Assembly (NCBI GenBank): GCA_030765065.1
Contig: CM060983.1
Coordinates: forward strand, 50,528,067-50,592,066
Direction: 5' to 3'
From: Deroplatys truncata
Lineage: Eukaryota; Arthropoda; Insecta; Mantodea; Mantidae
DNA: 64,000 nt
Positions within the stretch are counted from its first letter, which is position 1, and each line of letters begins with the position of its first letter. Under the pieces are notes generated by a model. It was not told the origin of the DNA. It did no database searches and saw only the letters and a program-made list of their open reading frames with translations. Position numbers and translations under genes: made by a program. Of this stretch, positions 1-55,599 are shown piece by piece.

Positions 1-3000
1 AAACTCCAAATGAGTACTACATACTGGATTTGTAACTCCAAATGAATACTACATACTGAATTTGTAACTCCAAATGAATACTACATACTGGATTTGTAAC
101 TCCAAATGAATACTACATACTGGATTTGTAACTCCAAATGAGTACTACATACTGGATTTGTAACTCCAAATGAATACTACATACTGGATTTGAAACTCCA
201 AATGAATACTACATACTGGATTTGTAACTCCAAATGAGTACTACATACTGGATTTGAAACTCCAAATGAATACTACATACTGGATTTGTAACTCCAAATG
301 AATACTACATACGGGATTTGAAACTCCAAATGAATACTACATACTGGATTTGAAACTCCAAATGAATACTACATACTGGATTTGTAACTCCAAATGAATA
401 CTACATACTGGATTTGAAACTCCAAATGAATACTACATACTGGATTTGTAACTCCAAATGAATACTACATACTGGATTTGAAACTCCAAATGAATACTAC
501 ATACTGGATTTGAAACTCCAAATGAATACTACATACTGGATTTGTAACTCCAAATGAATACTACATACTGGATTTGTAACTCCAAATGAATACTACATAC
601 TGGATTTGAAACTCCAAATGAGTACTACATACTGGATTTGTAACTCCAAATGAATACTACATACGGGATTTGTAACTCCAAATGAGTACTACATACTGGA
701 TTTGTAACTCCAAATGAATACTACATACTGGATTTGTAACTCCAAATGAGTACTACATACTGGATTTGAAACTCCAAATGAGTACTACATACTGGATTTG
801 AAACTCCAAATGAGTACTACATACTGGATTTGAAACTCCAAATGAGTACTACATACTGGATTTGAAACTCCAAATGAATACTACATACTGGATTTGAAAC
901 TCCAAATGAGTACTACATACTGGATTTGTAACTCCAAATGAATACTACATACGGGATTTGTAACTCCAAATGAGTACTACATACTGGATTTGTAACTCCA
1001 AATGAATACTACATACTGGATTTGTAACTCCAAATGAATACTACATTCTGGATTTGTAACTCCAAATGAATACTACATACTGGATTTGTAACTCCAAATG
1101 AGTACTACATACTGGATTTGTAACTCCAAATGAGTACTACATACTGTATTTGTAACTCCAAATGAGTACTACATACTGGATTTGTAACTCCAAATGAGTA
1201 CTACATTCTGGATTTGAAACTCCAAATGAGTACTACATTCTGGATTTGTAACTCCAAATGAATACTACATACTGGATTTGTAACTCCAAATGAGTACTAC
1301 ATACTGGATTTGTAACTCCAAATGAGTACTACATACTGGATTTGTAACTCCAAATGAGTACTACATACTGGATTTGTAACTCCAAATGAGTACTACATTC
1401 TGGATTTGTAACTCCAAATGAATACTACATACGGGATTTGTAACTCCAAATGAGTACTACATACTGGATTTGAAACTCCAAATGAGTACTACATTCTGGA
1501 TTTGTAACTCCAAATGAATACTACATACGGGATTTGTAACTCCAAATGAATACTACATACGGGATTTGTAACTCCAAATGAATACTACATACTGGATTTG
1601 AAACTCCAAATGAGTACTACATACTGGATTTGTAACTCCAAATGAGTACTACATACTGGATTTGTAACTCCAAATGAGTACTACATCCTGGATTTGTAAC
1701 TCCAAATGAGTACTACATTCTGGATTTGAAACTCCAAATGAGTCACTACATTCTGGATTTGTAACTCCAAATGAGTCACTACATACTGGATTTGTAACTC
1801 GAAATGAGTCACTACATTCTGGATTTATAACTCCAAATGAGTCACTACATTCTGGATTTGTAACTCCAAATGAGTACTACATACTGGATTTGTAACTCCA
1901 AATGAATACTACATACTGGATTTGTAACTACAAATGAGTACTACATCCTGGATTTGTAACTCCAAATGAGTACTACATCCTGGATTTGTAACTACAAATG
2001 AGTACTACATACTGGATTTGTAACTCCAAATGAGTACTACATACTGGATTTGTAACTCCAAATGAGTACTACATACTGGATTTGTAACTACAAATGAGTA
2101 CTACATCCTGGATTTGTAACTCCAAATGAGTACTACATCCTGGATTTGTAACTCCAAATGAGTACTACATCCTGGATTTGTAACTCCAAATGAGTACTAC
2201 ATCCTGGATTTGTAACTCCAAATGAGTACTACATACTGGATTTGTAACTCCAAATGAATACTACATACTGGATTTGTAACTCCAAATGAATACTACATAC
2301 TGGATTTGTAACTCCAAATGAATACTACATACTGGATTTGTAACTCCAAATGAATACTACATACTGGATTTGTAACTCCAAATGAATACTACATACTGGA
2401 TTTGTAACTCCAAATGAGTACTACATACTGGATTTGTAACTCCAAATGAGTACTACATACGGGATTTGAAACTCCAAATGAGTACTACATACGGGATTTG
2501 TAACTCCAAATGAGTACTACATACTGGATTTGAAACTCCAAATGAGTCACTACATTCTGGATTTGTAACTCCAAATGAGTACTACATTCTGGATTTGTAA
2601 CTCCAAATGAGTCACTACATCCTGGATTTGTAACTCCAAATGAGTACTACATACTGGATTTGTAACTCCAAATGAGTACTACATACGGGATTTGTAACTC
2701 CAAATGAGTACTACATACTGGATTTGTAACTCCAAATGAGTACTACATCCTGGATTTGTAACTCCAAATGAGTCACTATATTCTGGATTTGTAACTCCAA
2801 ATGAATACTACATACTGGATTTGTAACTCCAAATGAGTACTACATACTGGATTTGTAACTCCAAATGAGTACTACATACGGGATTTGAAACTCCAAATGA
2901 GTACTACATACGGGATTTGTAACTCCAAATGAGTACTACATACTGGATTTGAAACTCCAAATGAGTCACTACATTCTGGATTTGTAACTCCAAATGAGTA

Positions 3001-5894
3001 CTACATTCTGGATTTGAAACTCCAAATGAGTCACTACATTCTGGATTTGAAACTCCAAAAGAGTACTACATTCTGGATTTGAAACTCCAAAAGAGTACTA
3101 CATTCTGGATTTGTAACTCCAAATGAGTACTACATTCTGGATTTGAAACTCCAAATGAATACTACATACTGGATTTGTAACTCCAAATGAATACTACATA
3201 CTGGATTTGAAACTCCAAATGAGTACTACATACTGGATTTGTAACTCCAAATGAATACTACATACGGGATTTGTAACTCCAAATGAATACTACATACTGG
3301 ATTTGAAACTCCAAATGAGTACTACATACTGGATTTGAAACTCCAAATGAATACTACATACTGGATTTGAAACTCCAAATGAGTACTACATACTGGATTT
3401 GTAACTCCAAATGAATACTACATACGGGATTTGTAACTCCAATTGTGTACTACATACTGGATTTGTAACTCCAAATGAATACTACATACTGGATTTGTAA
3501 CTCCAAATGAATACTACATTCTGGATTTGTAACTCCAAATGAGTACTACATACTGGATTTGTAACTCCAAATGAGTACTACATACTGGATTTGTAACTCC
3601 AAATGAGTACTACATACTGGATTTGTAACTCCAAATGAGTACTACATACTGGATTTGTAACTCCAAATGAGTACTACATACTGGATTTGTAACTCCAAAT
3701 GAGTACTACATTCTGGATTTGTAACTCCAAATGAATACTACATACTGGATTTGTAACTCCAAATGAGTACTACATACTGGATTTGTAACTCCAAATGAGT
3801 ACTCCATTCTGGATTTGTAACTCCAAATGAGTACTACATACTGGATTTGTAACTCCAAATGAGTACTACATTCTGGATTTGTAACTCCAAATGAATACTA
3901 CATACGGGATTTGTAACTCCAAATGAGTACTACATACTGGATTTGAAACTCCACATGAGTACTACATTCTGGATTTGTAACTCCAAATGAATACTACATA
4001 CGGGATTTGTAACTCCAAATGAATACTACATACGGGATTTGTAACTCCAAATGAATACTACATACTGGATTTGAAACTCCAAATGAGTACTACATACTGG
4101 ATTTGTAACTCCAAATGAGTACTACATACTGGATTTGTAACTCCAAATGAGTACTACAACCTGGATTTGTAACTCCAAATGAGTACTACATTCTGGATTT
4201 GAAACTCCAAATGAGTCACTACATTCTGGATTTGTAACTCCAAATGACTCACTACATACTGGATTTGTAACTCGAAATGAGTCACTACATTCTGGATTTG
4301 TAACTCCAAATGAGTCACTACATTCTGGATTTGTAACTCCAAATGAGTACTACATACTGGATTTGTAACTCCAAATGAATACTACATACTGGATTTGTAA
4401 CTACAAATGAGTACTACATCCTGGATTTGTAACTCCAAATGAGTACTACATCCTGGATTTGTAACTACAAATGAGTACTACATACTGGATTTGTAACTCC
4501 AAATGAGTACTACATACTGGATTTGTAACTCCAAATGAGTACTACATACTGGATTTGTAACTCCAAATGAGTACTACATCCTGGATTTGTAACTCCAAAT
4601 GAGTACTACATCCTGGATTTGTAACTCCAAATGAGTACTACATCCTGGATTTGTAACTCCAAATGAGTACTACATACTGGATTTGTAACTCCAAATGAAT
4701 ACTACATACTGGATTTGTAACTCCAAATGAATACTACATACTGGATTTGTAACTCCAAATGAATACTACATACTGGATTTGTAACTCCAAATGAATACTA
4801 CATACTGGATTTGTAACTCCAAATGAGTACTACATACTGGATTTGTAACTCCAAATGAGTACTACATACGGGATTTGAAACTCCAAATGAGTACTACATA
4901 CGGGATTTGTAACTCCAAATGAGTACTACATACTGGATTTGAAACTCCAAATGAGTCACTACATTCTGGATTTGTAACTCCAAATGAGTACTACATTCTG
5001 GATTTGTAACTCCAAATGAGTCACTACATCCTGGATTTGTAACTCCAAATGAGTACTACATACTGGATTTGTAACTCCAAATGAGTACTACATACGGGAT
5101 TTGTAACTCCAAATGAGTACTACATCCTGGATTTGTAACTCCAAATGAGTCACTACATTCTGGATTTGTAACTCCAAATGAATACTACATACTGGATTTG
5201 TAACTCCAAATGAGTACTACATACTGGATTTGTAACTCCAAATGAGTACTACATACGGGATTTGAAACTCCAAATGAGTACTACATACGGGATTTGTAAC
5301 TCCAAATGAGTACTACATACTGGATTTAAAACTCCAAATGAGTCACTACATTCTGGATTTGTAACTCCAAATGAGTACTACATTCTGGATTTGAAACTCC
5401 AAATGAGTCACTACATTCTGGATTTGAAACTCCAAGTGAGTACTACATTCTGGATTTGTAACTCCAAATGAGTACTACATTCTGGATTTGAAACTCCAAA
5501 TGAGTACTACATTCTGGATTTGTAACTCCAAATGAGTACTACATTCTGGATTTGAAACTCCAAATGAGTCACTACATTCTGGATTTGAAACTCCAAATGA
5601 GTACTACATTCTGGATTTGTAACTCCAAATGAGTACTACATTCTGGATTTGAAACTCCAAATGAGTCACTACATTCTGGATTTGTAACTCCAAATGAGTC
5701 ACTACATACTGGATTTGTAACTCGAAATGAGTCACTACATTCTGGATTTGTAACTCCAAATGAGTCACTACATTCTGGATTTGTAACTCCAAATGAGTAC
5801 TACATACTGGATTTGTAACTCGAAATGAGTCACTACATTCTGGATTTGTAACTCCAAATGAGTCACTACATACTGGATTTGTAACTCGAAGTGA
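1..5894. repeat. 32/33-bp minisatellite array (about 180 units)
   Basis: The stretch is an unbroken head-to-tail array. The 32-bp unit reads roughly actccaaatgagtactaca followed by tactggatttgta. A 33-bp variant has gagtcactac in place of gagtactac. Variable positions recur (aata/agta, tact/tacg/ttct/tcct, tgta/tgaa), so units can be classed. The array begins before base 1 and decays at about 5885-5894, where the sequence continues as an old family A copy. Minus-strand frames exist only where 33-bp units run in a row (4154-4342 and 5604-5792, repeating ELQIQNVVTH). They are a by-product of a unit length divisible by three and are not genes. Confidence 0.98.
950..5500. repeat. higher-order duplication inside the minisatellite (offset 2,473 bp)
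   Basis: Diagnostic units recur at a fixed distance. The pair of tacggg units at 1526 reappears at 3999, and the taactac variant at 1925 reappears at 4398; both offsets are 2,473 bp. Agreement of unit types runs from about 950-1020 to about 3100 in the first block and from about 3423-3490 to 5500 in the second, with single units gained or lost. A cassette of 33-bp units containing the ctcgaaatgagtcac variant occurs three times, near 1730-1870, 4205-4340 and 5650-5790. This indicates segmental duplication of the array as well as unit-by-unit slippage. Confidence 0.85.
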
Positions 5895-6385
5895 GCCCTT
5901 TAATGCTGGATTTCAAATTCCATACTCTTACCATGACATCGCGGGAAGCAAATGAATAGCGCCAGTACGTTATAAATTTCATAATTATTGATAAATGTGA
6001 ACCAAAAGTAATATGGCTGATGCAACAAATAAACTTATTTCAAACAATTCGAGTGTTACATAGAGTTCCACTTTTTTCGTATAGTTCGTTTTCCTCTCTG
6101 TCAACGTTTACCAGTTATACAAAATTATGCTAAATTCTTTGAATATGAAATTGGCTTCAAAGGCTATTTCGAGAAAAATCGAGGTATTCTACGGTTTTTT
6201 CCTCGAGCAAATAATTTAAACATATAGTATTCTAATATAGATCGTTAGAACCATTTTAGAAGATAAAAAAATAACAAAACATCGTCCATGTAAGGTTAGT
6301 TTGGTTGGGGGGATTTCCTTGAAAATTTTCGTGTCACATCTTTGAAAGATACTAAATATAAATACCATGCCACGCACACATAGAC
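5895..6385 (-). mobile_element. old family A copy, partial, joined to the minisatellite
   Basis: The sequence follows the family A minus-strand consensus: ccatactcttaccatgac, then catcgcgggaagcaa, a ggctgatgcaacaaataaac segment, gtttaccagttatac, and finally the block gggatttccttgaaaatttt then cgtgtcacatctttgaaaga. It is diverged from the young copies at 28.9 and 57.3 kb, so it is old. Its left edge is the decayed last unit of the minisatellite, with no other sequence between them. Confidence 0.75.
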
Positions 6386-6459: not shown

Positions 6460-7383
6460 TAAGCAGTATTTTTAACACTTAAATATTTTAATCACATTAT
6501 ATAAATATAAATTTGAATAACAGGCCACCCTGAAGTAATATGGGCATGTAATAAATTGTAAAATGTATATTACAGTCATTGTATATGTTTATATTAATGT
6601 ATCCAGGTGTAATAATGTTATGTGAATGTATTTCGTAATTTAATAATGTAGGAGTTGTGAGAATAATAAGGTAAACGTTGCTAACAATGAGGTAACCTTG
6701 AGGCAATAATGAGTAAGGAAATTTAAATGCTACTAGTCATTATTAGAGCAGCAATAATGTAAATGTTCAGACAGTTTAAAAATAGCCAATCAACAACCAG
6801 CAAAGGCTTTAGTTAAATGAAGGTATTCTATTGGAGTAGGATTAGCCAATCAGAGACTTGAAACACAGAAATTTACAAGTTTAGACAGTTGAAATCAATT
6901 CAGTTGCCTCCAAAAAGTGCTCATAACCAGACGCGAGATGTGTCCTTGAGAAATTGAATACGTATTCGTGTAAGTCAAAAATAGTTTACGTGTTAAAAAG
7001 TGCAAGTATTAAATAAAAGAATCTCACAGCTCTCTATATCAGTGAACTGTTATTTAATGTGTGTCAAGGATTAACAAAAAGGAGTGAACTAAAACTTAAA
7101 ATCTGTGTAAGCCTACATTCTTAGTCGTACCAAAACCCTGCCAAGAGAAACATGTCTCTAACAAATACTGACGCAGCCGAGGCAAACATAAATATAATAT
7201 CTAAAGAAACAGTCAAATTACAAAGCTAATATTTTTAAACTTGGGGCGAAGGCTACCGGAAACTGTTTAACATACGTGCGGTTGCAACTACTACAAGTTC
7301 GGTTCCCCAACAGTTGAAATTTAATACAACTCCTTCAATACAACAACACAACCTACTTCAAATTGGCATCCATACGTGGGGCA

Positions 7384-14824: not shown

Positions 14825-15329
14825 TATATCTTGAGTTTCCTGGGAATATCTTGTGAAGTCCTTTCATTCGGAAGAAATTTTGTATAATCTTGTATAACTG
14901 TTAAATGTTAAGCAATACACGAAAATGTATCATAGATCTCATTAATGCATAATTTATTTTAAATATTTTTTGTGGCATAAGCCATTTCTGAGACATCCGT
15001 TTTTAAAGGTTCAAATTGTTCATTTCCTGTCATTCTCCTAAATTCCTGTTAAAAATTTAGTTGTTTCTCGCGATTACATGGAAGTAGTATGGAATTTCAA
15101 GGCCAGCATATAGCGTCCAGTTCTTAAACATTTGACTATCGCTGTTCTCTTTGTAGCTATAAGGAAACGTATAATGTAGCTATTTCTGCACGCTTTAGTA
15201 AGAATAGTATGTATACCCACTACTAAGGATAGAGAAAGTCATGTGAATGTATCACATCAGATTCTTTTAATAGTTGGCGGTATACATATGATTAACACAT
15301 GTATAATAGTGAACCAAATTTCGGAGCAG

Positions 15330-33889: not shown

Positions 33890-35740
33890 GTATTTCAAAA
33901 TTCAAAGCATTCTTAATGTTGAGATGAGTAAAACTTTTTTCCCAAATTTCCAAGTGTGAAGGAATCTATATAGATTTTAATAGCTTTATCTATTGTCCTA
34001 TTTCATGGTTACTGTTCCAAAAATGTTTTGCCACTGCTGATTTATCTATTTGTTTTGTATCAGTTTTAATTTCTTTGGTGTTCACTTAATCTTATTTTTA
34101 AATTCCGTTTAGTTCTACCTATATATGACCCTTTGCAACCATGACATGAGATCTGATAAATTCCTGATTTTTTTTTAAATAATCAGTTGTATTGGTCAAG
34201 GGTGTATTCAGCATATTTCTTAAACTGTAGGTATTCTGCGGTGCCAATTGGATCTGATAGTTTCTGAATAATTTTTCAAAAACTTTGAACATCACTGGGT
34301 GGTATGTAAACTTGTATATTAAATCCTTTTTATTCGGATTTTATAGGGTACTAATTATATGTAAGTTATGTTTCTTTTTATATCTAGTAATTATGTTACT
34401 GATAAGTTGAGGTTTGAAACCATTTTCAATAGCAACATTCTTAATATAATTTAATTAAGTGATATAGTCTTCTTTTCCAATGGTACATTAATCAATCTGT
34501 AGACCAAACTTCTTAAAACAGCATGCTGGTGTGAAGTAGGGTTATAGAAATTCTTTTTACTTTCTCTACTACGTATAGTAAGTAGGGGAAGTATTGTATT
34601 CCACCCAAAAATTCGATTCAGAGATTTCACCGGAAATACATGTTTTGAGATCCCCTGAATCCAAAAAAAGCATTTTTGGAAACATGTCCGTGTGTGTGTC
34701 TGTGTGTCTGTTTGTGAACAGCATAACTCAGAAACGAACAGTCGGATAAACACCAAACTTGGTATTTAGGTTCAATATCTTCCAAGGATGCGACACGAAG
34801 GTTTTCGAGAAAATCCCCCCACCCCAGATTACCCTTTACATGGAAGATTTTTCGAAAATTATAATTTTCTCAAAAATGGCTCTAACGATTTTGATTAAAA
34901 TATCATATGTTTAAGATATTTTTATGACAAATAAAATGTATATCTTGAATTTTCTGGGAATGTCTCCAAAAGTATTCTTCATTGTGAACGACTTTTCCAT
35001 AACTGGTAAACCATAAGAGATCGACAAAATTTTACTACACAAAAAATGTAGATAGCGTTAAAATACACAATTTATACATTTTTTTTGTTGAATGAACCAT
35101 TTTCGAGATATTGCTTGTTATTCCCTTAAATTTTTCAATACTTATTTTCTCAAATGGGAATTCGTTATTCATTTTTTTGTCATGGATATGCAAAGATTAT
35201 TAATCCGTGGCAAACAAAATGGTGCTGCACATAGCAACCAGCTATTAAGAGATATGTCTGTGCTTATATTGCCCTTGCAAATACAAAACAAGGGGAACAT
35301 AGTAGGCCTTAAGCGATGGTTAAATATTTTTAGAACTGGTCGCTATGTGTAAAATGTAATTCTCTTGCATGTCAAAAGATTGTTTATGCAAATGTTTATC
35401 TCGATTAATATGAAATACATGGAGAATAAGAGTTTGTAAAATTAGTTTGTACAAGAGTAGAGAAAGTCATGTGAGTGTAACACATCAGATTGTGTAGGTT
35501 TTCTGTAAATACCAAACTTTATATTACTTTCTTTTCTTTTTACCAGTATATCCAAGAAGGGTAATGAATTATTGGTTTCTGTTTCCATAGTAAATTTTAT
35601 ATGTGTTTCTAATATAAGTACAAGAAGTTTATCAAGCCAAGCAGCGTCCAAATGGACAGAACCACCGTAAAGACAATCTTACTACCCGAAGATTAGATTA
35701 GATGACGATTTTGTTTTGTTTGTTGAAGTTCTATCAACCA
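33890..35740 (-). mobile_element. Penelope-like element, partial, split by a family A copy
   Basis: The minus strand encodes in order DKLLVLILETHIKFTMETET, NNSLPFLDILVKRKES and YRKPTQ (35651-35491), then, beyond the inserted family A copy (34554-35491), NFYNPTSHQHAVLRSLVYRL (34560-34451), and further left a GIY-YIG block GIYQISCHGCKGSYIGRTKR near 34166-34105. These are the palm/thumb part of the reverse transcriptase and the C-terminal nuclease of Penelope-like elements. Frames are broken in several places, so it is dead. Confidence 0.82.
34554..35491 (+). mobile_element. family A copy, full length, young, inside the Penelope-like element
   Basis: Starts tttttactttctctactacg and ends gtagagaaagtcatgtgagt plus gtaacacatcagat. 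The Penelope reading YRKPTQ stops at its right edge and NFYNPTSH resumes at its left edge, so the insertion site is known to within a few bases. Confidence 0.92.
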
Positions 35741-45652: not shown

Positions 45653-46400
45653 TGAACAAGTGTTACTCGTTTGGTCACCTCTTGTCGTATTCCTCCAAAC
45701 TGATGACTCTTCTCTCTTGACCAACCACACCTAGCCACGTGACTTCAGCTTTCAGTGTCACTTCACTAATGCGATTTCGTTCATTTTCACTGCCACTTCA
45801 TTAGTGGACATAGTTCATTTTCACTGCCACTTCACTTTTCTGGTATAACTTACTTTAGTTTTCACAGCCACTTCAATTTTCCTCTTCCTTCCGCTTCACT
45901 CGCTGGAGTGTCGAACACAGGACTTCGCAACAAACAGTACTACGACATAACACTCTCTGTAGGCCACAATAACCAACTCACTCGTAGAACACACTGAACA
46001 AGCACTTTAAACGGCATCAGTAACAATTCACTAACTCGCTGATTGTCGCGAGCACGCTCGCAGGAGCTTCGAGAGAGTTCGCAGGAGGCGGGGGAAGGAA
46101 CATCCAGAAGTGTCTAGTTGTATATCAGTACCGCTTTTGCGACTCATGTCGGAGGGAGAGAGGTCTCTCCCTCATTATCTATCCAACAAAAGAGGCGGCC
46201 GCTGCTGGAGGACACGCCCGCTAGCCTGGCGCACAATAGCTTCATTGCAATTATTAAATAACGCCCACTGCATATAATGTCTTTCACTATGGTCAAATGA
46301 TTTAGAATGACCTAAATCTCAATATTGTTTCCCTTTTATGCCAGTAGTGGCTCGTGGCCTAAATAATACGCGAGGCTCTTTTCAGCTCACAACCCCTACA
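45653..46400 (-). mobile_element. LTR of a further retrotransposon, with polypurine tract (fossil)
   Basis: On the minus strand the unit begins TGTAGGGGTTGTGAGCTG at 46400, directly after a purine tract (agttttgggggggga, 46402-46417). It ends acacttgttca at 45653, giving TG...CA ends and 748 bp. Three repeats of a gaagtggcagtgaaaatgaa type lie in its 3' part (45770-45880). A polypurine tract on its 5' side makes it a 3' LTR with internal sequence to the right. It looks Gypsy-like, with no recognisable protein left. Confidence 0.65.
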
Positions 46401-51049: not shown

Positions 51050-52195
51050 AAAAAATCTGACGTGTTGCACTTACATGACTTTCCCAATTCACTGTTTTAC
51101 AATTTATTTTTACAAAAGCCTCTTATTCTGTCTATTTCTTGATGGTACCGATAAACTTCAATTCACAGTTTCACGTTCCGTTGTACGATACAGTTGGCAA
51201 AGCTATAGTTAGGTTTTTAAAGAGCGTGTCGCTATGTGATGGCTTCGAAATTTCATGCTCTTTGTATGACCACGAAGAAAAAAATTCTGATATATTACAT
51301 TCACAAGACTTTCTGTACCCTCTATCGTTTATTAATGGGTACTCAAACTATTCCCTTTTATTTTTCCATCTACTATATTTTAATCTAAATATACCTTTGC
51401 GGAAATAGCTACACTACACATTTCGTTATAGATACAAAGAGAACAGCGATAGTTAAAAGTTTAAGAACTGGAACGCTATATGCTGGCCTAAAATTCCATA
51501 CTGTTACCACGCAATCGTAAGAAACACTTGAGTATCGACAGGACATTGAACAATTCGAACATTAATAGCGGATAACTCGAAAATGGCTTATGCCACAGAG
51601 ATGTTATTTGGAATAAATTGTGTATTTGAAACACATCTACATTTTCTGTGTAATAAAAATTAAATTGAGTTGTATTTATGGACGCTTGCGTCCCATTCTA
51701 TACTAGGTGTGAAAGACCGGAAATTTTGCTCAGAGGCCTCTTTGTCAGGGTTGAGGTTGTTTTACGTGCCGTAAATCAACGAATTTTCTGTGTAGTGCAT
51801 TTTCGTGGCTTAACGTTCACCAATTCCAAATAAAGGGGACTTCACAGGGTGTTCCTATAAAATTCAAGATATAAATTTTAATTGGCATGTGATTATCTTT
51901 AATATATGATATTTTGAGAAAATCAAACGTTTTCAAAAATGTTCTGTATAAAGGCTAGTTGGGGTGGGGAATATTCTTGATAATATTGCATATTTGGAAG
52001 GTATTGAACCTAAATGCCAAGTTTGTATTTATTAGAGATTTTGTTTGAGTTATTCTATTCAGAGGCGCACACATACACACACATACGGAACGTTTTCTAA
52101 ATATTGTTTTTTTGGATTCAGCGAGGGTCCAAACATGTATCAGCAGTAAAATCGCGGTGTCTGTTTTAGGATGGAATACCTCGAGACTAATTTTA
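51050..52195 (-). mobile_element. family A, two copies (one short), with a SINE inserted
   Basis: 51050-51125 is a short end fragment (aatctgacgtgttgcactta). 51283-51652 plus 51783-52195 is an older-subfamily copy in minus orientation (attctgatatattacattca, ctatatgctggcctaaaatt, gttcctataaaattcaagat, gggtccaaacatgtatcagc). It is interrupted by a SINE-1 at 51653-51782. Confidence 0.78.
51641..51794 (-). mobile_element. SINE-1, 5'-truncated, perfect 12-bp target duplication
   Basis: attttctgtgta occurs at 51641-51652 and 51783-51794. The 130-bp body between them holds the 3' tail (attgagttgtatttatggac) through ttttacgtgccgtaaatcaa and stops before the B box. Loss of the 5' end with the tail kept is the usual mark of LINE-driven insertion. 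Confidence 0.85.
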
Positions 52196-52346: not shown

Positions 52347-53045
52347 TCTGCACAACGTATGGGAGCCAATTTGTCGCGGTAACTTCGTGTTATCTATTGC
52401 TGGGCGCCTGTTATTGTTTTACTACTTTGAATGTTGGGTTCATTGTCCTCCGGCTAGCTATTGTTTCTCGGTCGAGCACATCTCTTGAACAGGGTGTGTA
52501 AACGGAAAGGAGTTGTTACTCAAAGATAACACTGATAAAAGAATTTGTTTTTACACTTTTATTACCGTCACAATTAATTAAGTTCACATATTGACTCTTG
52601 ATACACGCCAGACTGAAACTGTTATATTTTCTGTTACTATAATAACTTATTTACTGCACATTATTAATTCGCATACTTCAACTTTTTTTGTAACTAACTT
52701 TACGACGCGAGAGATTTTGTAGAACTTTGCCACGTGTAACTCGCGAACGATTCTGATGAACTAAGCGACGTTTAACTTCTGAATGATTCTGTTGGACTCA
52801 GCGACGTGTAATGCGTGGATGATTCTGTTGAACTGGATAATACTTGCCTCATCTAATTAATAAACAACTCACCCCCTCGCTCATTGTTGCCCGCTCTTAT
52901 TGTCAGTTTCAGTGAGGCCGTGTAAACTTATTTCCTAACAATGCTTATAATTAACAAACATCTCAAATCAATGTCATACAATCATGCTTATTTACACTAT
53001 AATCACTCTGGCATTTACATTGTTGTGATATAAAATACTGCCACA
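52347..53045 (-). mobile_element. LTR-C relative with PBS-like sequence (fossil)
   Basis: The minus-strand LTR runs from 53045 (TGTGGCAGTATTTTATATCA) to 52372 and is followed by aattggctcccatacgttgt. Shared with LTR-C: tcctttccgtttacacaccc, aatagctagccggaggacaa and the start region. It is clearly diverged from the 41.4-kb element, with no coding part or second LTR. Confidence 0.72.
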
Positions 53046-53505: not shown

Positions 53506-54413
53506 ATATCACTTTCTCTACCCACAATCGTTTAGCTTTATATACCTACTTTCTAAAAACCATTCTTACGAAATTCTGTATCACTGACATAGTACGTCAA
53601 AACTGGACGCTATTTCGATACGAAATTTCACTGTAGGTACATGTTTTGAAGCCCCTAAATAAAATAAATCATTTTAATAAAATGGTCCGTGTTCATATGT
53701 GTGTGTTTGTGTATGTGAACAGCATAAGTCAAAATCGAAATCTTGGATAAATACTAAACTTGGCATTTTAAGTTCACTACCTTGCAAAAATGCCACATGA
53801 AGGTTTTCAAGAAAATCCACCGCCCCAAACTATCCTTTACATGGTACATTTTTCAAAAGTAATTGATTAAAATTCATTAAAATACAATATACTAAATGCA
53901 TTTACATGACATAAAATACATATCTTGAATTTTCTGGGAATAGCCTGTGAAGTCCACTTCAGTTGGAAGAAATTTTGTATAATCTTGTACAGCTGCTAAA
54001 CATTAAGCAATAGACGAAAACGCTAAAAATGCAGATCTCTTTAAAATACACGATTTACTTCAAATAGGTTTTTTGTGGCATAAGCCATTTCTGAGATATT
54101 CGTTATTAATGGTTCGAATTTTCGTTACTTGGTCATTCTTTAAAGTCCTTTCAACATTCAGTTGCTTCTCACGATGTCATGGAAACAGTATGGAATTTTA
54201 AGGCAGAATATAGCGTCCAGTTCTTAAACATTTGACTATCGCTGTTCTCTTTGTATCTATAACGAAATGTGTAATGTAGCTATTTCTGTAAAGGTTTATT
54301 TACATTAAAATGTAGTAGATAGAAAAAAATAAGCTTTAGTCAAAATAGTTTGTATACCCACTAATAAACGATAGAGGGTAGAGAAAGTCATGTGAATGTA
54401 ACACATCAGATCC
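53506..54413 (+). mobile_element. family A copy, older subfamily, preceded by a short inverted piece
   Basis: 53506-53618 is a minus fragment (tatcactttctctacccaca, aactggacgctatttc). 53619-54413 is the plus-oriented body: tgtaggtacatgttttgaag, gtgtatgtgaacagcataag, tatcttgaattttctgggaa, tagcctgtgaagtccacttc, gttgcttctcacgatgtcat, ending gtagagaaagtcatgtgaat plus gtaacacatcaga. A good reference for the older 3' half. Confidence 0.82.
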
Positions 54414-54787: not shown

Positions 54788-55599
54788 TGTTGCAGTTCTC
54801 GTGGCTCGTGTTATCTAATTTGTTGAGCGCCTCTTGTTTATTATTTTAAATTTGGGTTCTTTGTCCTCCGGCTAGCTATTACAACTCAGTCGAGCAAGTG
54901 TCTCTAAGCGGGGCGTGTAAACGGAAAGGAGTTGTTGCTAAAAGATAACATTGATATAATAATTTGTTTCTACACTTTTATTGTAGTCACACTTAATTAA
55001 TAATTCACATATTTAATCTTTATACACGCCTGACTGAAACTGTGATGATTCCAAATGTAACTACAGTCGTTTTATTTGCGGCACGCCAATTATTTCGCGT
55101 ACTTCACATTTTGTAACTAACTTTGCGACGTGCACCTCGTAAGAGATTCTTCCGAACTGTGTAACGTGCACCTAATGAGAGACTCTTCCGAACTGTGCGA
55201 AACTTGCTTATGGCTCGAGAATATATACTCCTTCACCTCGAATTGCCTAAACATTATAATAGAGCTGCTATTGGTTACCAAATCGCGCCCACTTTAGCGT
55301 CTGTTTTGTCAGCCAATCACTACTACTAACATATATGCTCTAGGGAAGATATTCCCTCCATTTCTAAAAATGGCACGCTACCCTGACGTCATTTATTTGT
55401 CTCTTCTTAGTGATAAACTACTCATCTCCTCAGTTTATTGTTACCCACTTCTATTGTCAGTTTTAGTTAAGCCGTGAAAACTTATTTCCTAACAATACTT
55501 ATGGCTAACGAACATCTAAAATCCTGTACATACAATAATATTAATTTACACTACAATCGCTCTGGCATTCACAGTGTTGTGATATAAAATATTGCCTCA
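54788..55599 (-). mobile_element. LTR-C relative, solo LTR (fossil)
   Basis: The minus strand starts TGAGGCAATATTTTATATCA at 55599 and ends gaactgcaaca at 54788 (812 bp). It shares tcctttccgtttacacgccc, aatagctagccggaggacaa and the cagtttcagtcaggcg block with the other LTR-C copies. No PBS or internal sequence remains. The 4 bp on the two sides do not match. Confidence 0.75.

Follow-up and report, generated by a model that had tools for sequence, protein, structure and literature searches.

The window analyzed here, a stretch of 64,000 nucleotides (C9:50528067-50592066 of a 4.29-Gb assembly), opens within a minisatellite array, the start of which lies outside the window. The array comprises 10,732 bp in total (C9:50523256-50533987), a length obtained from a single assembly and including a 961-bp insert discussed below. 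At the left edge, the flank ends at position 6755 of the neighboring stretch L009 (C9:50516501-50526500), and the first unit starts at 6756 (C9:50523256); at the right edge, the last unit ends at window position 5921 (C9:50533987). The window part of the array (1..5921, + strand), delimited with Tandem Repeats Finder, which reports a 32-bp array at 2-5895, and with a script anchored on CTGGATTTG(A/T)AA, consists mostly of 32-bp units with 33-bp units interspersed toward the right edge. With the 961-bp insert excluded, the script places 303 anchors in the whole array, one per segment copy, and finds 70 distinct unit sequences; the 302 anchor intervals are separated into 231 intervals of 32 bp, 70 of 33 bp, and one of 36 bp. 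The array has no evident function and is a by-product of repeat instability. Elsewhere in the window, Tandem Repeats Finder reports short arrays of 34-36-bp units with other sequences (52713-52834, 55128-55197, and 45750-45836), which comprise 2 to 3.4 copies.

The array adjoins a copy of a dispersed repeat, herein referred to as family A, which is related to the ~900-bp elements common in the window and in L009, with about 65-74% identity between them in blastn comparisons. A well-preserved relative of approximately 945 bp with HINE-like ends is located at 34553..35497 (+ strand). Ends were tested in eight of the ten printed ~900-bp copies, w57273 and L9_2305 being left out. The 5′ subTIR, ACTTTCTCTAC, is found near the terminus, mostly behind a T-run, in these eight relatives (six exact, one with one mismatch, and one with two). 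Just inside, an inverted repeat of the subTIR, AGTAGGGGAAGT, is present within two mismatches in 8/8 tested copies, such that the subTIR and the repeat fold together, and the 3′ end carries the inverted subTIR and, behind it, a short palindrome, again in 8/8. A subTIR with an inner inverted repeat and a 3′ subTIR with a palindrome are given as the marks of HINEs, i.e., non-autonomous Helentrons, in excerpts of PMC4067079 and PMC7492417, and family A is on the basis of its sequence considered HINE-like. In the family A end search, 48 loci were offered and 46 were anchored (L012 and L029 being one place); the left end was detected in 31/46 and the right end in 22/46, and among the latter, three lie more than 900 and two less than 450 bases away instead of ~640. 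As further marks of HINEs, a T-rich target without target-site duplication and an autonomous Helentron partner with matching ends would be expected; A/T-rich sequence adjoins the element ends here. HINE-like elements apparently inserted head to tail, with one end directly abutting the next start, were also observed in L009 (2305-4123) and near the left ends of L062 and L064. Furthermore, the Helitron_like_N domain (PF14214) has 152 matches in the genome, with 150 of 291 candidates scored; many of the matches are located in open frames of more than 1,000 codons.

At the right edge, the last array unit (5889..5921, + strand, 33 bp) agrees in phase with the array, as its CTGGATTT lies 33 bases beyond the CTGGATTT of the preceding unit, and 22 of its 33 positions match the consensus family A segment; its right part, AATGCTGGATTTCAAATTCC (5902-5921), aligns to the 3′ part of the original segment. 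An earlier note on this DNA described the array as passing straight into a family A copy at about 5894. The same copy does adjoin the array, and the boundary is placed at 5921/5922. The agreement of 16 in 20 positions reported there between the array unit and the first family A bases is correct by direct reading; those bases (5903-5922), except the last, lie in an in-phase array unit and are at the same time part of the family A segment.

Beyond this boundary, the right flank (5922..6367, − strand in the HINE sense) is the remainder of the same family A copy. Briefly, 1 kb of left flank and 600 bp of right flank were searched by blastn against the remainder of the window and 18 further family A loci. 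In its main alignment with each of the 18 loci, the right flank is 68-72% identical, and it reaches 6364-6367 in 14/18, its 3′ coordinate being the point where the blast alignments end; past 6367, the far end of the founding copy has been lost, or other repeats stand in its place. In L012, positions 3754-3947 match the left flank (L009 6551-6741; E 3e-17) and those from 3976 onward match the right flank, so that L012 possesses one 33-bp segment (3962-3994) where the array has 10.7 kb. The same order of flanks is found, more weakly, in L024, in further copies in L011, L025, and L027, and in a window copy at 53618..54411 (+ strand in the HINE sense), in which the left flank aligns to 54282-54411 and the right flank to 53767-54201. 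At many of the 18 loci, no blast match of the left flank lies beside that of the right flank, or the left flank matches another copy. The left edge is thus, as the earlier note had anticipated, the rest of the same copy, which is colinear and in the same orientation as the right flank, i.e., minus in the HINE sense, and both array edges belong to one family A copy with flanks colinear with those of other copies.

Multiple alignments of 22 and 30 copies place the left and right flanks on either side of the segment. The 22-copy alignment includes the 18 loci and four window copies (near 15,109, 21,499, 54,210, and 60,396), the copy at 51,470 named in the earlier note being outside the site alignment; the 30-copy alignment comprises the 30 best-scoring copies among 40 candidates scored from a total of 4,486, which were selected for their likeness to L012 and are hence non-random. 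The segment measures 33 bp in 26, 32 bp in two, 29 bp in one, and 26 bp in one of the 30 close copies, and 33 bp in 17, 32 bp in three, 29 bp in one, and 28 bp in one of the 22-copy set; two segments are found in none of either set. As L012 is present in both sets (as L012 and L029), the distinct aligned copies number 51, and 51/51 carry a single segment of 26-33 bp, mostly 33. The flanks of the array agree with the consensus in 156/205 columns on the left and 87/126 on the right, less than the 30 close copies, which average 85% before and 74% after the segment; the founding copy is therefore diverged, and its own junction is known through its relatives only.

The family is very common, with 91,027 places matching a 28-base core with up to three mismatches (45,694 + 45,333, some of them within an array on C1), and two different family A copies might accordingly flank an unrelated array by chance. 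The probability of such an arrangement is close to negligible: the flanks terminate where a single 33-bp segment begins and ends, both show states of L012-like copies, and the family is also matched by the unit. Furthermore, by arithmetic from the core-match count, the chance that a random edge in 4.29 Gb lies no more than 5 bp from the correct point and is correctly oriented is about 1 in 10,000.

The relationship between the unit and the family A segment is most evident at the left end of the array. The leftmost 42 units, 40 of which are 33 bp long, are of an older type with the consensus AAGCTAGTCGCTGTATACTGGATTTGAAATTCC, which matches the consensus segment AAGCGGGTCGCTATATGCTGGCCTAGAAATTCC in 26/33 positions, ungapped and in the register set by the flanks. 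That register is the best placement over all rotations and positions on both strands of 362 bp of the consensus; none of 1000 shuffled 33-bp units reached 26 (shuffle maximum, 23), and 1/150 random stretches of the window did. In a scan of the remaining 57.6 kb of the window (both strands, all rotations), the 12 best placements printed were all located on one family A copy at approximately 15,113-15,124 with a score of 26; the part of this copy at 15055..15123 (+ strand in the HINE sense) contains a single segment. An intermediate 33-bp type (AAATGAGTCACTACATACTGGATTTGAAACTCC, rotated) scores 23 against the segment, which 1/150 shuffles equal. By contrast, the 32-bp unit consensus matches family A in 19/32 positions ungapped, as well as 413/1000 shuffles do, and in 21 positions with a gap, as well as 32/150 shuffles do. 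The 32-bp unit was accordingly rejected as the ancestral unit, having lost one base and matching no better than shuffles, and the comparison in the earlier note could not settle the kinship because it relied on this unit alone. Alignment of the unit to a family A consensus against shuffles, as proposed there, distinguishes the 33-bp form (26/33, 0/1000) and fails to distinguish the 32-bp form (413/1000). As judged from the sequences, the ancestral unit is the 33-bp form preserved at the left end of the array. The case for an origin in place is hence made by the far-left 33-bp units, which lie outside the window, together with the left flank; of the proposal that a stretch of about 32 bp of the element was amplified in place to nearly 6 kb or more, the origin in place is retained, with an ancestral unit of 33 bp and an array of 10.7 kb.

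Genome-wide searches with patterns of two neighboring segments yielded this array only (5 hits and 3 hits), with none for the reversed controls, these patterns being strict such that old or diverged duplications could be missed. The single state has 34,283 exact matches in the genome (17,248 + 17,035); neither this number nor the 91,027 core matches is accepted as a count of dispersed copies, since some matches lie within the C1 array. Probes from the 33-bp and 32-bp parts of the array gave 8 and 2 candidates genome-wide, respectively, all at this array. These results bear on the alternative that a family A copy captured a minisatellite already present elsewhere or received it by insertion. 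Elements of the Helitron group are known to pick up tandem repeats, as described in part of PMC12628747. However, the unit shares homology, in register, with the segment that the family itself carries at that site, the flanks end at the two ends of this segment, and the array probes match one place only; hence, capture is considered very unlikely.

The order of units along the array provides further information. When units are averaged in successive blocks of 20, starting at the left edge, the matches to the ancestral segment number 24.3, 24.8, and 22.2, and thereafter 20.4-21.2, climbing at the right end to 21.6 (units 280-299) and 22.0 (the last two). As the block means are high at the left, low in the middle, and higher again at the right, the oldest unit types persist toward the two ends, the pattern expected from unequal exchange. 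Within the young part of the array, the average difference is 1.5 positions between neighboring units and 1.9 between units paired at random. Identity between units is most frequent at a spacing of 77 units, where it reaches 25% compared with 11% on average, and this spacing suggests the duplication of a block of ~2.5 kb within the array. Furthermore, the 961-bp insert (L009 8745-9705; C9:50525245-50526205) starts with TG, ends with CA, and has ATTT on both sides as a 4-bp target duplication. With 40 out of 3,663 candidates scored, it matches at least 39 further genomic places at 95-98%, and four same-strand pairs of such matches lie 3.2-3.8 kb apart; by these hallmarks, the insert is identified as a solo LTR. 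Because the LTR copy sits inside the array, the array predates its insertion, and because the array contains one LTR copy, it has probably not been multiplied across this point since then.

This zonation of unit types also concerns a second alternative, in which rolling-circle replication of the element during transposition produced the array, which was then inserted in finished form. The HINE-like ends of family A and the Helitron_like_N matches in the genome are in agreement with such a process, and rolling-circle slips are proposed as the source of tandem Helitron pieces in part of PMC12628747. Rolling-circle amplification is possible for a Helitron-class element; however, it fits badly here, as a single internal 33-bp piece was multiplied, leaving one left and one right remainder, whereas the published model multiplies 5′ ends, and no second such array was found in the genome with the array probes and the strict patterns, though daughters would be expected had the array moved. 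The unit types are moreover zoned as in local enlargement. An origin of this kind is thus improbable, albeit somewhat less so than capture.

The reading that we favor, with a probability of approximately 0.93, is that the minisatellite arose in place from an internal 33-bp segment of a single diverged HINE-like family A copy and was then enlarged to ~303 copies. What is directly demonstrated is that one copy borders the array on either side and that relatives carry the segment once, together with the register, the series of units, and the solo LTR. From these, we infer how duplication and enlargement proceeded at the molecular level and in which order. The internal 33-bp segment of one diverged family A copy would have been tandemly duplicated with ~1 bp shared at the join, and the duplicated 33-mers would have supplied the homology for slippage or unequal exchange, allowing growth in place to ~303 copies. 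The units would then have diverged, with one lineage losing a base (33 to 32 bp); this younger 32-bp form may have spread through the middle and right of the array, leaving the older 33-bp form at the left edge and the intermediate 33-bp form near the right edge. An LTR retrotransposon would have been inserted later and left the solo LTR. As to the first step, 1 bp is shared at the join of the 33-bp array, both in the consensus (...TTTAA|AAGCGG... versus ...ATTCC|ATACTC...) and in the copy's own flanks. Direct repeats of 5-10 bp flanking the amplified motif are absent from the consensus of the relatives and from the flanks of the copy, although the lost ancestor may have differed. The model also predicts that some copies with two or three 33-bp units may exist; counting against it, none was found genome-wide with the strict patterns.

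An overlapping segment of family A, 109-128 bp in length and containing the 33-bp segment, is likewise repeated in tandem elsewhere, in arrays that comprise 2, 5, 5, at least 10, and more than 120 units and all have one junction type. The largest, with over 120 units, occupies C1:17014899-17048800, where the core recurs every 120 or 128 bp at C1:17,041,116-17,047,503; two stretches within it, L059 and L060, form a clean array of the 120/128-bp unit from the same internal region, with the 33-bp segment inside the unit and with 20 junctions in 2,500 bases and 17 in 2,000 bases, respectively. Five units of 128 bp with four junctions are found both at C1:17481951-17483250 (L063) and at C10:246244251-246245450 (L062), two units with one junction at C10:249430451-249431650 (L061), and at least 10 units of 109-117 bp with at least nine junctions at C15:127261751-127263150 (L064), where the array runs off the stretch. 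The 128-bp-type junction matches 649 places in the genome with up to three mismatches (160 + 489), of which, besides C1, these four low-copy loci were read; among the 100 exact junctions listed, 88 lie at C1:17,014,899-17,026,983. The left end of the family A copy is retained in 4/4 of these loci, and the rightward continuation of the element is colinear in L062 and L063 and broken off in L061. The search proposed in the earlier note, for other family A copies with short arrays at the same internal position, thus yields copies with the overlapping 109-128-bp unit in that region, whereas another family A copy with a duplication of the 33-bp segment was not found genome-wide with strict patterns.

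The breakpoints of the 128-bp series share 3 bp, GAA. Duplication between AGAAACARCT direct repeats was considered as the cause of the 128-bp arrays and rejected, as both repeats stand side by side at the junction and only GAA is shared. Since all 128-bp-type loci were found via one shared junction, they may all trace back to a single duplication that transposition dispersed and are not counted as independent events. Two separate junctions, that of the 33-bp array and that of the overlapping ~128-bp series, have given 2 to more than 120 units with 1-3 bp of microhomology, and it is tentatively conceivable, though doubtful, that this internal region is prone to tandem amplification and that the family keeps seeding satellites throughout the genome by a microhomology route.

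The first step in the birth of a satellite is rarely visible because the ancestral state is usually lost. Here, one genome retains the single state at tens of thousands of places, both halves of the founding copy, older and younger units in order, and overlapping sister series, and the initial junction is readable, without the flanking repeats of 5-10 bp that the usual model requires. That pieces of transposons can be amplified into minisatellites and satellites is well established, as indicated in excerpts of PMC12628747, PMC6947457, PMC3389668, and PMC4079207; the route of minisatellite birth is thus already known, and the unusually full record is what counts. As far as described in the relevant portions of these reports, minisatellites derived from Alu (Jurka and Gentles, 2006) and, in mouse, from B1 and MaLR, both as cited in PMC6947457, likewise amplify a short internal piece of a dispersed element, whereas the present case involves a HINE-like DNA element with ~303 units and leaves the single-copy state, both flanks, and the 33 to 32 bp step visible. 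The central repeats of HINE/DINE-1 and DINE-TR1 (PMC4067079, PMC7492417; Dias, 2015, as cited in PMC6947457), in the passages available, share the build of the element ends and tandem repeats inside copies, and form longer arrays from the same units, similar to the 109-128-bp series; those repeats are carried by many copies, whereas the 33-bp array is found in one copy, with 51/51 aligned copies single. The Tetris TIR-220 satellite of Drosophila virilis, in the part of PMC4079207 that concerns it, also developed from repeats inside a non-autonomous DNA element into arrays of kilobase size, although Tetris is a foldback-like element with ~220-bp repeats already in tandem within it. Finally, the model of Haber and Louis (1998), as outlined in PMC6947457, similarly involves an initial duplication followed by enlargement through slippage or unequal exchange; in that model the motif is flanked by repeats of 5-10 bp, whereas the breakpoints described here share 1 bp in the 33-bp array or 3 bp in the 128-bp series.
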